NCBI GenBank assembly: GCA_944385665.1
Contig: CALWYB010000007.1
Coordinates: 1-61,572 of the forward strand
DNA from: an uncultured Oscillospiraceae bacterium
Lineage (GTDB): Bacteria > Bacillota > Clostridia > Oscillospirales > Oscillospiraceae
Direction: 5' to 3'
DNA: 61,572 nucleotides
Part shown: positions 7,818 to 57,591 of the stretch, piece after piece
Numbering within the stretch: the stretch's first letter is position 1
How the letters are laid out: every line of letters starts with the position of its first letter
Made by a program: the position numbers and the translations under genes
The notes under the pieces: model-generated
What the model saw: only the letters and a program-made list of their open reading frames with translations
What the model was told of the DNA's origin: nothing
Database searches by the model: none

Positions 7818-8900
7818 ATGAATGAGCGTGTCTACAATTTCTCCGCTGGCCCTTCCATGCTCCCGCTTTCCGCCCTGGAGCGCGCTGGGTCAGAGATCAC
7901 CAACTACCGCGGCAGCGGCATGTCCGTGATGGAGATGAGTCACCGCTCAAAGGTCTTCCAGCAGATTTTTGACGAGACCCAGGAGAAGCTTCGCCGCCTG
8001 ATGAAGGTCCCCGATGGCTATAAAATTCTGTTTTTGCAGACCGGCGCCTCCGGCCAGTTCTCCATGATCCCCCTGAACCTGATGGGTCCCAACGGCTCGG
8101 CTGACTACGCCGTCACCGGCAATTTTGCCGGCATCGCCGCCAAGGAGGCCGCCAAGTACGGCACCGTGAACATCGCCGCCGACACCAGCGACCGGGATCA
8201 CAGCTACATCCCCACCCAGGAGCAGCTCAAGCTCTCCCCTGATGCCCGCTATTTCTACTACTGCTCCAACAACACCATCTACGGCACGGAGTGGCAGTAT
8301 GTCCCCGAGACCGGCAAGGTGCCCCTGGTGTGCGATATGTCCTCCGACATCCTCTCCCGCCCCGTGGACGTGTCCAAGTACGGTATCATCTACGCCGGTG
8401 CCCAGAAAAACATGGCGCCCGCCGGTCTGACGGTGGTCATCATCAAGGAGGACCTAGCCGGCCACGAGCTGCCCTACACCCCCCTGATGATGAACTATAA
8501 GACCATGATTGACAAGGACTCCATGTACAACACTCCGCCCTGCTGGTGCATCTACATGCTGGGCCTGAACCTGGACTGGATCGAGGAGCAGGGCGGCGTG
8601 GAAGGGATGCAGAAGCTGTCCCAGCTGCGCTCCTCCATGCTCTATGACACCCTGGACAACTCCCGTCTGTTCCACTGCCACGCGGAGAAGGGCTCCCGCT
8701 CCGGGATGAACGTCACCTTCCGCACCGGCAGCGACGAGCTGGACGCCAAGTTTGTGGCCGAGTCCACCGCGGCCGGCTTCATCAACCTGAAGGGCCACCG
8801 GAAGGTAGGCGGCATGCGCGCCTCCATCTACAACGCCATGCCCGTGGAAGGCGTGGAGAAGCTGTGCGACTTCATCAAGGAGTTCGACAAGAACAACTAA
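7818..8900 (+). CDS. serC: Phosphoserine aminotransferase
   Basis: 360 aa, full length for the family. It converts 3-phosphohydroxypyruvate and glutamate to phosphoserine, the second step of serine synthesis. Landmarks are the N-terminal YNFSAGPSMLP, the LQTGASGQF phosphate-site loop, and the PLP-binding lysine Lys197 in AGAQKNMAPAGL. GAAAGGGG precedes the ATG and a consensus promoter lies upstream. serA, the preceding enzyme of the pathway, lies 314 bp downstream. The gap holds a structured repeat and a second, divergent copy of the last 48 bp of serC (9071-9118). Confidence 0.97.
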   Translation: MNERVYNFSAGPSMLPLSALERAGSEITNYRGSGMSVMEMSHRSKVFQQIFDETQEKLRRLMKVPDGYKILFLQTGASGQFSMIPLNLMGPNGSADYAVTGNFAGIAAKEAAKYGTVNIAADTSDRDHSYIPTQEQLKLSPDARYFYYCSNNTIYGTEWQYVPETGKVPLVCDMSSDILSRPVDVSKYGIIYAGAQKNMAPAGLTVVIIKEDLAGHELPYTPLMMNYKTMIDKDSMYNTPPCWCIYMLGLNLDWIEEQGGVEGMQKLSQLRSSMLYDTLDNSRLFHCHAEKGSRSGMNVTFRTGSDELDAKFVAESTAAGFINLKGHRKVGGMRASIYNAMPVEGVEKLCDFIKEFDKNN

Positions 8901-8948
8901 GTCCTTATCCTTTCCTGTTTTCCCACGCCTTCCGGCACGTGTCAGCGG

Positions 8949-9070
8949 GCCGCGCCTTTTGGCGCGCACAAGCCATGTTCCTTTGGAACATGCTTGCCGC
9001 AGGGCGAATTCACTTCGCCCGAGGATTTTAAATCCTGGGATTCCCACAAAACGCCTGCATTTTGTGGGGC
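8949..9070 (+). repeat. Structured interspersed repeat, copy 1 (after serC)
   Basis: Four successive hairpins. A: CGCGCC/GGCGCG (8951-8966). B: 8969-8996, CAAG...CTTG base, a variable stem and one unpaired C. C: the 34-bp core 8993-9026, containing GGGCGAA/TTCGCCC. D: CCCACAAAA/TTTTGTGGG (9043-9068). The core is base-for-base identical to 57449-57482 behind pgk. Stems B and D differ in sequence between the two copies but both still pair. No coding capacity or terminator T-run is evident. Directly after hairpin D comes the second copy of the serC 3' end. Confidence 0.85.
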
Positions 9071-9118
9071 GGCGTGGAGAAGCTGCGGGACTTCATCAAG
9101 GAGTTCCACAAGAACACC
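9071..9118 (+). pseudogene. Second copy of the serC 3' end
   Basis: Matches serC 8850-8897 at about 43 of 48 positions, with two clustered changes (Cys to Arg codon), one Asp to His change and a diverged end. There is no stop codon, and the frame stays open in phase into serA. The fragment encodes GVEKLRDFIKEFHKN, against GVEKLCDFIKEFDKN in serC. Confidence 0.88.
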
Positions 9119-9143
9119 GAACCGGAAGAAACAAAACTTTTTC

Positions 9144-9175
9144 CGAGGCCGCGGGCTCTGCCCGCGGTCTCGGCA
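9144..9175 (+). other. Strong GC hairpin between the serC remnant and serA
   Basis: CCGAGGCCGCGGGC, loop TCT, GCCCGCGGTCTCGG: a 14-bp stem with one mismatch or wobble. No T-run follows, so it is not a clear terminator; it may protect the transcript end or be part of the repeat. Confidence 0.55.
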
Positions 9176-9214
9176 CATCAACATAAATTCACTCACGATT
9201 CGAGGTTGTTTATT

Positions 9215-10387
9215 ATGTATCGCATTAAAACCATGAACAAAATTTCCACCGCCGGTCTGGACCAGTTGGACAAGACCCGCTTCCAGGTGGGCAACGACGT
9301 AGAGAACGAGGACGGTATCCTCGTGCGCTCCGCCGCCATGCACGACTATGAGTTTCCCGACGCTCTGCGGGCCATCGCCCGTGCCGGCGCCGGTACCAAC
9401 AACATTCCCATCGACCGCTGCTCCGAGCACGGCATCGTGGTCTTCAACACCCCCGGCGCCAACGCCAACGCGGTAAAGGAGCTGGTCATTGCCGCCCTGC
9501 TCATCGCCTCCCGTGACATTCTGGGCGGTGCCGAGTGGGTGCAGGAGCAGGCCCACACCCCCAACGTAGACCTGGCCGCCGCCGTGGAGAAGGGCAAGAG
9601 CGCCTTTGTGGGCCCCGAACTCTACCGCAAGACCCTGGGCGTCATCGGCCTGGGCGCCATCGGCGCCCTGGTGTGCAACATCGCCCTGGATCTGGGCATG
9701 GACGTGTACGGCTACGACCCCTTCCTGTCGGTGGACGCCGCCCTGCGTCTGGACCGCCACGTCCATGTAGTGAACAATGTGGATGACCTGTACAAGGTCT
9801 CCGACTATGTCACCATTCACGTTCCCTACAACAACGACACCAAGGACTTTATCAACGCTGAGGCCATCCGCAAGATGAAGGGCCAGGTCCGGGTGCTGAA
9901 TCTGGCCCGGGGCGGCCTGGTCAACGATGACGACATGATTGAAGCTCTGGAGTCCGGCCGGGTGGCCAAGTACGTCACCGACTTCCCCGACGACAAAATT
10001 GCCCTGGTCCACAACGCCATCGCCCTGCCCCACCTGGGCGCCTCCACCCCCGAGAGCGAGGAGAACTGCGCCCGCATGGCCGCCGATCAGCTCAAGGACT
10101 ACCTCATCAACGGCAACATCAAAAACTCCGTCAACCTGCCCAACGTCCATCAGGACTGGAGCGGCATCTGCCGGGTGTGCCTCATTCACAAGAACGTGCC
10201 CGCCATGCTGACCAAGATCACCACCATCCTCTCCAACGAGGGGGTCAACGTGGAGAACCTGACCAACAAGTCCAAGAAGGACTACGCCTACACCATGGTG
10301 GATCTGAACAGCCGCATCAAGGACGTGGTGGCCGACGAGCTGCGTGCCATCTCCGGCATGATCCGGGTGCGGGTGCTGAATCACTGA
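9215..10387 (+). CDS. serA: D-3-phosphoglycerate dehydrogenase, short form with C-terminal ACT domain
   Basis: 390 aa. It oxidises 3-phosphoglycerate to 3-phosphohydroxypyruvate with NAD, the first step of serine synthesis. The Rossmann motif GVIGLGAIG is at about 142-150. The catalytic His lies in ALPHLGAST and the Arg region in NLARGGLVND. Residues about 318-390 form an ACT domain (VPAMLTKITTILSNEGVNVE), a likely serine-feedback site; the extra intervening domain of long-form SerA is absent. The ATG at 9215 is where homology to SerA begins. The frame is open upstream to 9062 through the serC remnant, but those residues are not SerA-like. The ribosome-binding site is weak (CGAGGTTG). Confidence 0.95.
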   Translation: MYRIKTMNKISTAGLDQLDKTRFQVGNDVENEDGILVRSAAMHDYEFPDALRAIARAGAGTNNIPIDRCSEHGIVVFNTPGANANAVKELVIAALLIASRDILGGAEWVQEQAHTPNVDLAAAVEKGKSAFVGPELYRKTLGVIGLGAIGALVCNIALDLGMDVYGYDPFLSVDAALRLDRHVHVVNNVDDLYKVSDYVTIHVPYNNDTKDFINAEAIRKMKGQVRVLNLARGGLVNDDDMIEALESGRVAKYVTDFPDDKIALVHNAIALPHLGASTPESEENCARMAADQLKDYLINGNIKNSVNLPNVHQDWSGICRVCLIHKNVPAMLTKITTILSNEGVNVENLTNKSKKDYAYTMVDLNSRIKDVVADELRAISGMIRVRVLNH

Positions 10388-56178: not shown

Positions 56179-57375
56179 ATGAACTACAACAAGAAAACTG
56201 TCAAGGACATCGACGTCGCCGGTAAGAAGGTGCTTCTGCGCTGCGACTTCAACGTGCCCATGGCCAAGGACGGCAGCGGCGTCATCACCGATGACAAGCG
56301 CATCCGTGCCGCTCTGCCCACCATCCAGTACCTGCTGGACCAGAACGCCGCTGTCATCGCCTGCTCCCACATGGGCAAGCCCAAGGGCGAGGTCGTCCCC
56401 TCCCTGAGCCTGAAGCCCGTGGCCAAGCGCCTGAGCGAGCTGCTGGGCAAGGAGGTCATCATGGCCGAGGACGTGGTGGGTCCCGACGCCCAGGCCAAGG
56501 CCGCCGCTCTGAAGCCCGGCCAGATCATGCTGCTGGAGAACACCCGCTTTGAGAAGGGCGAGACCAAGAACGATCCCGAGCTGGCCAAGGCCATGGCTTC
56601 CATGGCTGAGGTGTATGTGTCCGACGCCTTCGGCGCCGTGCACCGCGCCCACGCCTCCACCGCCGGCGTGGCCCAGTACCTGCCCGCCGTCAGCGGCTTC
56701 CTCATTCAGAAGGAGCTGGAGATCATCGGTGGCGCTCTGGCCAATCCCAAGCGTCCCCTGGTGGCCATTCTGGGCGGCAGCAAGGTCTCTTCCAAGATCG
56801 GCGTCATCAACAACCTGCTGGAGATCGCCGACACCATCATCATCGGCGGCGGCATGACCTACACCTTCCTGAAGGCCCAGGGCGGCTCTGTGGGCAAGTC
56901 CCTGCTGGAAGAGGACTGGCTGGACTACTGCAAGGACATGATGAAGAAGGCCCAGGAGAAGGGCGTGAAGTTCCTGCTGCCTGAGGACACCATCTGCGCC
57001 AAGGAGTTCTCCGCCGACGCCGAGCCCATCCTGGTGGACAGCATGCACATCCCCGACGACTGCCTGGGCATGGACATCGGCCCCAAGGCCATTGCCGCCT
57101 ACGCTGACGCGGTAAAGGACGCCGGCACCATCATCTGGAACGGCCCCATGGGCGTGTTTGAGTTCCCCGCCTTTGCCAAGGGTACCCAGGCTGTGGCCGA
57201 GGCTCTGAGCAAGAGCAATGCCATCACCATCATCGGCGGCGGCGACAGCGCGGCTGCCGTGCAGCAGCTGGGCTATGCTGACAAGATGACCCACATCTCC
57301 ACCGGCGGCGGCGCCTCCCTGGAGTTCATGGAGGGTAAGGAACTGCCCGGCGTGGCCTGCCTGCTGGACGCTTAA
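56179..57375 (+). CDS. pgk: Phosphoglycerate kinase
   Basis: 398 aa, full length. It transfers the phosphate of 1,3-bisphosphoglycerate to ADP. N-terminal substrate residues RCDFNVPM, the SHMGKP region, and C-terminal nucleotide-binding [13 protein letters not shown] and [19 protein letters not shown] are present. It is the first gene of a lower-glycolysis run (pgk, tpiA, gpmI, eno); gap is not in the window. Directly after its stop codon (57375) come a structured repeat and a second copy of its last 23 codons. Confidence 0.97.
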
Positions 57376-57408
57376 AATCAGCAAGCGCCGCCGCGCGAGC
57401 GTAAGCGA

Positions 57409-57522
57409 GCCGCGCCCATAGGCGCGTCCAAGCGTTTGCGAAGCAAACCTTGCCGCAGGGCGAATTCACTTCGCCCGAGGATATGAAATCAAAGGGGTCC
57501 CCGGTGGAGCGCAGCTCCACTG
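57409..57522 (+). repeat. Structured interspersed repeat, copy 2 (after pgk)
   Basis: The same four-hairpin order as copy 1. A: CGCGCC/GGCGCG (57411-57426). B: 57429-57452, CAAG-C-GTTTGC/GCAAAC-CTTG with an unpaired C. C: the identical 34-bp core 57449-57482. D: a 12-bp stem (57499-57510 with 57514-57525). Compared with copy 1, stems B and D have changed on both sides so that pairing is kept. Just before it is a GC-rich arm with AGCGTAAGCGAGC. Confidence 0.85.
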
Positions 57523-57591
57523 GGGGGCGCCTCTCTGGAGTTCATGGAGGGCAAGGAACTGCCCGGCGTGGCCTGCCTGTTGGATGCCTGA
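57523..57591 (+). pseudogene. Second copy of the pgk 3' end
   Basis: 69 bp matching 57307-57375 with about seven differences. They are mostly synonymous, so the encoded 21 aa ([21 protein letters not shown]) are the same, and the stop is TGA instead of TAA. Without the gene's 5' part it cannot be functional on its own. The pattern suggests that both copies once served as coding ends. Confidence 0.9.

Follow-up and report, generated by a model that had tools for sequence, protein, structure and literature searches.

The window analysed here, a stretch of 61,572 nucleotides from an uncultured Oscillospiraceae bacterium (contig CALWYB010000007.1 of assembly GCA_944385665.1), carries the genes serC and pgk, whose identities were confirmed by NCBIfam, and each of them is followed by a folded repeat and then by a second copy of its own 3' end. 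The end of serC at 8850-8900 recurs at 9071-9121 with 90% ungapped identity, and pgk 57307-57371 is copied at 57523-57587 (92%); the stop codons lie at 8898-8900 and 57373-57375, respectively. The repeats at the two sites share an identical core of 33 nt (8994-9026 and 57450-57482), a match that appeared in none of 100 shuffles. The initial annotation had reported both second gene ends and the common core, and all three were confirmed; its boundaries for the serC duplication (8850-8897, 48 bp) were slightly short. Searches of 15 loci gave no Rfam match to the repeat at gathering thresholds. In the list below, p is the insertion point, L and R are the left and right gene-end copies, both of which begin at p, hp numbers the hairpins, and R1 is a covariance model that we built from 47 copies; elsewhere, G denotes a genome and L with a number a locus.

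8846..8856, + strand: inverted-copy target in serC (GGAA^GGCGTGG, score 11), with the insertion point at 8849/8850
8850..8900, + strand: left gene-end copy (L) of serC, the serC end now in use, with its stop codon (L/R comparison)
8923..8933, - strand: guide-like inverted copy of serC 8846-8856 (score 11; locus L154)
8934..9070, + strand: folded element at the serC site, with hp1, hp2, hp3 (core 8994-9026) and hp4 (R1 match 8935-9069, 103.9 bits)
9071..9121, + strand: right copy (R) of serC, partly decayed; the DNA beyond it is the native serC-serA spacer
57305..57314, + strand: inverted-copy target in pgk (GCGGCGG^CGC, score 10), with the insertion point near 57311/57312
57312..57375, + strand: left gene-end copy (L) of pgk, stop codon TAA (L/R comparison)
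57385..57394, - strand: inverted copy of pgk 57305-57314 (inverted-copy search)
57395..57527, + strand: folded element after pgk, core 57450-57482 (R1 match 57395-57526, 111.3 bits)
57528..57591, + strand: right copy (R) of pgk, stop codon TGA, with synonymous differences only (L/R comparison)

The left boundary of the serC-site element (8934) is approximate, and the exact insertion point in pgk is uncertain because the site is repetitive; another inverted-copy scan placed the best match 11-21 nt further right. The R copy of serC has three amino-acid changes and has lost its stop codon, so that it reads on in frame (ORF 9062-10387) into a serA-like gene, whose match to phosphoglycerate dehydrogenase (E=5e-72) falls under the curated cut-off. 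The DNA after this copy is native spacer, since window positions 9122-9230 align with the serC-serA spacer of the empty genome G012 (score 51), whereas the DNA after L, at 8901-8945, does not (score 7). In pgk, the last 19 residues of R are the same as those of L, and all six codon differences are synonymous, including the change from TAA to TGA.

Both window sites belong to one covarying hairpin repeat of 110-150 nt, with 13 R1 copies in the window's genome; in samples of 120 genomes from the host family and 197 from the order, 49 and 19, respectively, gave matches. Among the cultured carriers is Pseudoflavonifractor capillosus An827. The initial annotation had proposed searching for the core in this genome and its relatives, and that search bore out the link with duplicated gene ends in the host family. 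Direct duplications flanked 10 of the 13 copies in the window's own genome (in one case, L159, what is repeated is a terminator rather than part of a gene), 29 of the best 30 of 49 copies in the complete, single-contig genome G116 (23 of 24 loci once tandem copies were merged), and 79 of 103 contig sites from all 117 contig loci listed, of which there are at least that many and possibly more. In a subset of 80 contig loci the figure was 52 of 68, and a mismatched-locus null gave a duplication in 1.9% of 1101 pairs. The threshold score of 20 also admits a few repeats other than gene termini, among them L159 from the window's genome and L074, L097 and L113 from contigs, and among the sites that we inspected the duplicated segment was a gene terminus almost without exception. 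The statistics given below for junctions, inverted copies, duplication lengths, strand folding, codons and agreement with L or R were drawn from 80 of the 117 contig loci listed. The earlier idea that the element lands at gene ends applies to most host-family copies and has to be widened, because antisense copies also sit at gene starts (lepA, cinA).

Duplication is not obligatory to the core, as is clear from two classes of copies that mostly or wholly lack it. In another family (f7), four genomes (G030, G177, G195 and G237) had high copy numbers, their counts being at least those listed, and six of 20 copies tested (14 from G177, five from G030 and one from G195) passed the duplication threshold, with about two of them (L349, L352) being clean gene ends. 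The initial annotation held that the association would be coincidental if most copies of the core lacked a duplicated end; most of the 20 do in f7, and most copies carry one in the host family. These high-copy relatives, mostly without duplication, may represent an ancestral REP-like state. The second class comprises copies in which another palindrome replaces hp4 and no gene-end duplication is present, several of them adjoining convergent tRNA genes (confirmed at L021 and L033, and by eye at the others). At L021, L033, L040, L042, L043, L044, L077 and L081 the replacement is a long palindrome, its arms rich in A and T (for instance CCAAAAAGAAAGACA...TGTCTTTCTTTTTGG). Among pgk copies without a duplication, the second end had decayed in L053 and was absent from L265. 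Seven viral contigs from IMG/VR also carry the core, five of them with the duplication, and on one (L300) the host gene is a terminase. The element forms tandem arrays at L045, L104, L296, L300 and several places in G116, and many genes of one genome carry cores that are near-identical by eye; together, these arrays and cores suggest mobility.

In element sense, the order of parts is host gene, p, L, an inverted copy spanning p, hp0/hp1, hp2, hp3 (which holds the core), hp4 and R, where L consists of the gene terminus with its stop codon and some sequence past it, and either or both of hp0 and hp1 are absent from some copies. R began 55-85 nt from the core anchor at 50 of 52 contig sites, 9 of 10 sites in the own genome and 22 of 29 sites in G116, the seven exceptions in G116 being tandem or overlapping arrays or starts at the edge of the searched region. 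The right junction was almost always just past the last hairpin, hp4, at unrelated genes, and the left element boundary varied by copy, falling at hp0, hp1 or hp2. Duplications measured 29-254 nt with a median of 76 (80 sites), some of the longest representing tandem copies. It was also observed that hp4 looks host-gene-specific across species, reading CGGGATG..CATCCCG at infB sites L007, L012, L024, L039, L041 and L102, while at the same sites hp1 and hp2 look genome-specific, as if cores had been swapped within genomes.

The inverted copy of the target, located to the left of the hairpins, is a newly recognised part of this layout. It scored at least 11 at 44 of 78 sites and at least 9 at 57 of 78 (63 of 79 for the latter over all contig loci listed). 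In control windows 40-160 nt upstream, scores of at least 9 occurred in 1-4 of 78 and scores of at least 11 in none of 78, and windows from other loci gave 1 and 0 of 76, respectively. The copy usually spans about 9-19 nt across the insertion point; among 59 cases, 43 have the left edge 3-6 nt ahead of p and 52 have the right edge 6-13 nt beyond it. The copy tracks local sequence differences: several positions ahead of p distinguish the polC sites L111 and L299, and at both sites the inverted copy follows the local version. At positions where L and R differ, it agreed with L 29 times, with R seven times and with neither six times; of the 29, four stem from L153, where the pgk alignment is shifted, and several are no more than 3 nt from the junction. 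A role for the inverted copy as a splint to R was ruled out by this agreement with L (29 versus 7).

The four ordered hairpins that the initial annotation described after serC correspond to hp1-hp4 of this covarying repeat, to which both window copies belong. In an alignment of 70 distinct copies, fitted to the model, 15 of 18 pairs changed on both sides and 97.5% of cells were paired; none of 500 shuffles reached the observed covariation values, and slid partners lost the signal. An unfitted MAFFT alignment also revealed covariation in three hp1 pairs and in the foot pair of hp3, which was C-G in 24 of 47 copies and G-C in 23. With RNA parameters, the element-sense strand folded more stably (mean -53.5 kcal/mol) than its complement (-50.8 kcal/mol; p=3e-7). 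Of 100 triloops, 36 were of the form C-GNA-G. Loops of the C-GNA-G type are extra-stable in single-stranded DNA, and the triloops and the element-sense folding, taken together, hint at a single-stranded DNA form.

Comparison across genomes of the genus allowed us to consider which of the two gene ends is foreign. At serC, the element was present in four of 30 genomes, at one shared point in G000, G010 and G158 and at another in G008. When G010 was compared with the empty site of G159, R differed at 5 of 51 nt, with 52 of the next 60 nt matching, and L differed at 11 of 51 nt. In turn, L of G010 differed from L of G158 at 3 of 51 nt, with 56 of 60 matching beyond it; for R of G158 the figure was 16 of 28 nt of following DNA, after which the contig ends. 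These comparisons indicate that at serC of G010 the right copy is native-like and that the left copy probably travels with the repeat. Other arrangements were observed at this gene. The element in G008 (L314) marks an independent insertion point, further upstream than in the other three genomes, and the second serC end there codes for different C-terminal residues. In G163 (L304) and G018 (L309) the serC end is followed by a different repeat (ending in GGACTTTGCGACGACGA or similar) and then a second serC end, and an inverted target copy was not seen by eye at either locus. In G006 (L324) two tandem ends are separated by an 8-nt remnant, TGGGGCCC, which is probably the scar of a lost element.

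At infB, elements occupy one point in five of the 30 genomes (G000, G008, G012, G018 and G159), a degenerate element is present in G011, and G001 and G023 have elements at another point; the infB loci of the other 22 genomes of the genus gave no R1 element. R of G159 differed from the empty site of G010 at 4 of 84 positions, and R of G008 from that of G163 at 5 of 84. The L copies of G159 and G008 end in EEVER, and the infB ends of G011 and G158 are EEIER; the ending type of the former two was seen elsewhere only in G011, with its degenerate element, and in G158. These results indicate that in G159 and G008, two of the five infB sites, R is apparently native-like and L element-linked. At the remaining three (G000, G012 and G018), L and R are among each other's nearest relatives, and R differed from the nearest empty sites at 7, 7 and 7 positions and L at 6, 6 and 6, so that these sites appear non-discriminating or lean the opposite way. 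At ackA, L and R share species-specific codons. Taken together, the patterns at serC, infB and ackA suggest that the element can import a replacement end that displaces the native one, and that local duplication or gene conversion occurs as well. Of the two outcomes that the initial annotation had offered, a long target duplication or a replacement gene end, replacement therefore fits serC in G010 and infB in G159 and G008, and not infB in G000, G012 and G018; the comparison with insert-free strains that it had called for divided along the same line, with a native-like R at the former sites only. Two further observations concern infB. In G013 (L214), a small ORF (MTDKQFKGF...) takes the place of the repeat before the second infB end, and related small ORFs follow infB at L202, L204, L212, L221 and L222, where a second end was not seen. 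In G158 (L223), a 13-nt tandem duplication, CTACGAGTGCGGC, lies exactly at the insertion point and shifts the frame, representing either a scar or an assembly error.

The explanation that we favour, with confidence somewhat short of even, is that a small non-autonomous DNA element inserts at p and imports a replacement terminus; we hold it less firmly because three of the five infB sites lack a native-like R. We infer that the moving form is DNA and that a trans-acting enzyme recognises its hairpins in single-stranded form. Insertion would take place at a single point in a conserved gene, usually close to its end and more rarely close to its start, and the inserted unit would comprise L (the terminus from p onward), a short inverted copy of the sequence on both sides of p, and the folded core, of which hp4 is the last hairpin. 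By completing the gene, L would make the insertion harmless, and the host's own terminus would stay beyond hp4 as R, free to decay. An enzyme acting at hp4 would make the right junction, while the free 3' end at p would be extended over the gene end, fold back a few nt past p, and be joined to the element, yielding both L and the inverted copy. Once formed, units of L plus element could pass from strain to strain, in part at least through homologous recombination and perhaps with phages as carriers. HUH-mediated insertion with resynthesis and fold-back at p is the likeliest route, although unproven.

A RAYT-like HUH transposase is the best candidate for the enzyme. The protein matched NCBIfam REP_Tyr_transpos with E=4.8e-19 (below cut-off) and TnpArep (PDB 4er8) with E=5e-5. 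Its gene lies 76 bp downstream of a copy in G000 (uvrB, L229, C28) and 369 bp downstream in G116 (L256), and in G125 (uvrB, L231, C11) RAYT fragments lie within 90 bp of a copy and an intact gene about 1 kb away; every RAYT-profile match in these genomes (one each in G000 and G116, three in G125) adjoins a copy. At L229, L231 and L256, the RAYT gene or fragment stands directly after the second gene end. Overall, three of 30 RAYT loci carried a copy, two of them at uvrB, and Y1_Tnp was found in 12 of 30 chosen genomes. No phyletic association between RAYT and the element was detected over 120 genomes (16/33/22/49, p=0.84), which weakens RAYT as a general partner.

An alternative that dispenses with any dedicated mobility is unlikely. 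Incoming DNA would recombine homologously within the gene and illegitimately downstream of it, so that a donor end, the insert and the host's own end would stand in succession. This would account for the donor-type L and native-like R at serC and at some infB ends, and for the second ends that accompany other inserts (the different repeat at serC in G163 and G018, the 8-nt scar in G006 and the infB ORF in G013). However, it does not predict that the right junction falls at the end of hp4 in many unrelated genes, that the inverted copy spans p, or that near-identical cores (by eye) occur at many different genes of one genome.

We consider it rather improbable that the element moves by target-primed reverse transcription at a nick at p, a process by which the 3' end should be exact, the 5' ends uneven and the duplications long and of varying size, while snap-back priming would produce the inverted copy. 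The nearly constant hp4 junction, the left boundary at hp0, hp1 or hp2 depending on the copy, and duplications of 29-254 nt are all consistent with such a process. However, reverse transcriptase matches (RVT_1, E<=1e-10) were distributed over 10 of 15 element-rich genomes and three of 10 zero-count genomes, and the element copy nearest to one, among the copies listed, was 8.5 kb away (G104, C29). The absence from five element-rich genomes and this distance weaken RVT_1 as a partner.

A new small intron is improbable, despite a topology of exon, guide, core and exon. Here the p-to-p unit would be removed from RNA, the inverted copy would pair with the 5' exon in the manner of an internal guide sequence, and the full protein would be encoded by spliced and unspliced mRNA alike. 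Frame and stop position are indeed widely kept: of 79 readable rows (some records being counted twice), 62 have an R with its stop codon in an unchanged position, and the codon differences between L and R in those 62 rows are 200 synonymous and 69 non-synonymous. In six gene families, we counted 25 synonymous and 7 non-synonymous R-derived differences, 37 and 10 L-derived ones, and 21 and 14 ties, two rows of this count being noise (L083, read out of frame and among the ties, and L036, which starts elsewhere). From these codon counts, R looks about as protein-constrained as L in those families, a pattern that would suit units acquired from other species. It is conceivable that R is still in use, for example through frequent excision, but no such use is needed to account for the synonymous excess if L is imported together with the element. 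Some R copies are broken, among them that of serC in the window and that of L289, which by eye has an in-frame stop, so that such copies end early or, as in serC, are extended.

Splicing was first favoured for the synonymous-only pattern, and was demoted by the antisense site at lepA and by the agreement of the inverted copy with L over R. In the window's genome, an antisense element sits at the start of lepA, where the two copies show 10 synonymous and no non-synonymous differences, and by eye both carry a ribosome-binding site and start codon. The same antisense layout at a gene start occurs at L065 (a lepA-like site, whose second copy has 5 synonymous and 6 non-synonymous differences) and at cinA (L108); at antisense sites the gene body lies to the left of p and is completed by L. 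The automatic division into sense and antisense was unreliable in GC-rich DNA in this codon comparison, for which the L156 row was relied on. An exception is mnmG (L158), where a gene start is involved in sense, and no inverted copy was found at that site. RNA splicing is disfavoured because it cannot explain antisense copies at gene starts, and the match of the DNA beyond R to native empty sites and the lack of Rfam intron matches also argue against it. Finally, a transcribed regulatory or 3'-stabilising RNA with gene-end duplication as a recombination by-product is very improbable, since strong covariation, better folding of the element-sense strand and many sense copies at gene ends would suit it, but presence at any given gene (infB, serC) is patchy, antisense copies occur at gene starts, and regulation does not predict duplicated termini.

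If our favoured explanation of a DNA element that imports a terminus is right, a mobile repeat could occupy essential genes free of cost by supplying the terminus that it displaces, and gene ends would be exchangeable between species by way of the element, with duplicated termini as the trace. The target-matched junction would provide a handle for finding the enzyme. Second gene ends in such genomes can be traces of insertion and not assembly errors, as seen in the single-contig G116. It is possible, although we regard it as doubtful, that these are tiny mobile elements that use a target-complementary segment of single-stranded DNA and a spare terminus to home harmlessly into essential genes across species and phages.

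Several known systems share some of these properties. Introns of groups I and II are a poor comparison, with no Rfam intron match in the 15 loci. Diversity-generating retroelements are expected to produce adenine-specific differences, but 179 of 377 L/R differences involve A and 136 are C/T, and no RVT_1 match lay within 8.5 kb of the copies listed. DDE-type MITEs make short target duplications of fixed length, in contrast to the variable ones here (29-254 nt, median 76, 80 sites), and no terminal inverted repeats of the MITE kind were seen by eye in alignment A1. A closer resemblance is to YPAL/RU-2 and other MITE-like repeats, which are likewise structured, 100-200 nt long and accompanied by duplications of variable length; the available portion of the YPAL report describes target duplications of 3-26 bp at or next to dyad symmetries (PMC2229807). 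The duplications described here are longer and complete the host gene, and an inverted target repeat is not mentioned in that portion for YPAL (PMC2229807).

The REP/RAYT and IS200/IS605 systems are similar in their dispersed hairpins; here, RAYT neighbours the repeat in three genomes (three of 30 loci), with no phyletic association. REPs are single or paired palindromes whose foot is a GTAG-like tetranucleotide, whereas the foot of this element is [G/C]CGCA..GAG[G/C]A and it has 4-5 hairpins (by reading of A1). Transposition of the IS200/IS605 type is not known to leave a target duplication, in contrast to the duplication at 79 of 103 contig sites listed here. In IS200/IS605, the tetranucleotide of the target flank is engaged by a guide that lies beside the foot of the hairpin, according to the sections of PMC6006769 available to us; known guides are tetranucleotides and known REPs 21-65 nt long (PMC6006769), and here the complement usually covers about 9-19 nt and the terminus is duplicated. 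The available sections of PMC6379469, PMC6006769 and PMC2229807 contain no description of a small repeat that combines an inverted copy of its target with an extra gene terminus, and the statement in the initial annotation that no element with such behaviour had been described still stands for the published articles searched.

The system closest in logic is prophage e14 of Escherichia coli, which, as set out in the portion of PMC6379469 that we could consult, supplies a replacement 3' end for icd and leaves the displaced 163-bp pseudo-end in place; Rac, according to the same source, integrates at a gene start, that of ttcA (PMC6379469). The prophage e14 is a whole phage genome that uses site-specific recombination, whereas the element described here is a repeat of 110-150 nt, too short to carry an integrase gene, with an inverted target copy and many sites. 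What the two have in common is that inserted DNA supplies the end of a core gene and the host end is displaced, a pattern that we did not find at infB of G000, G012 and G018 and that is apparent at serC of G010 and at infB of G159 and G008.
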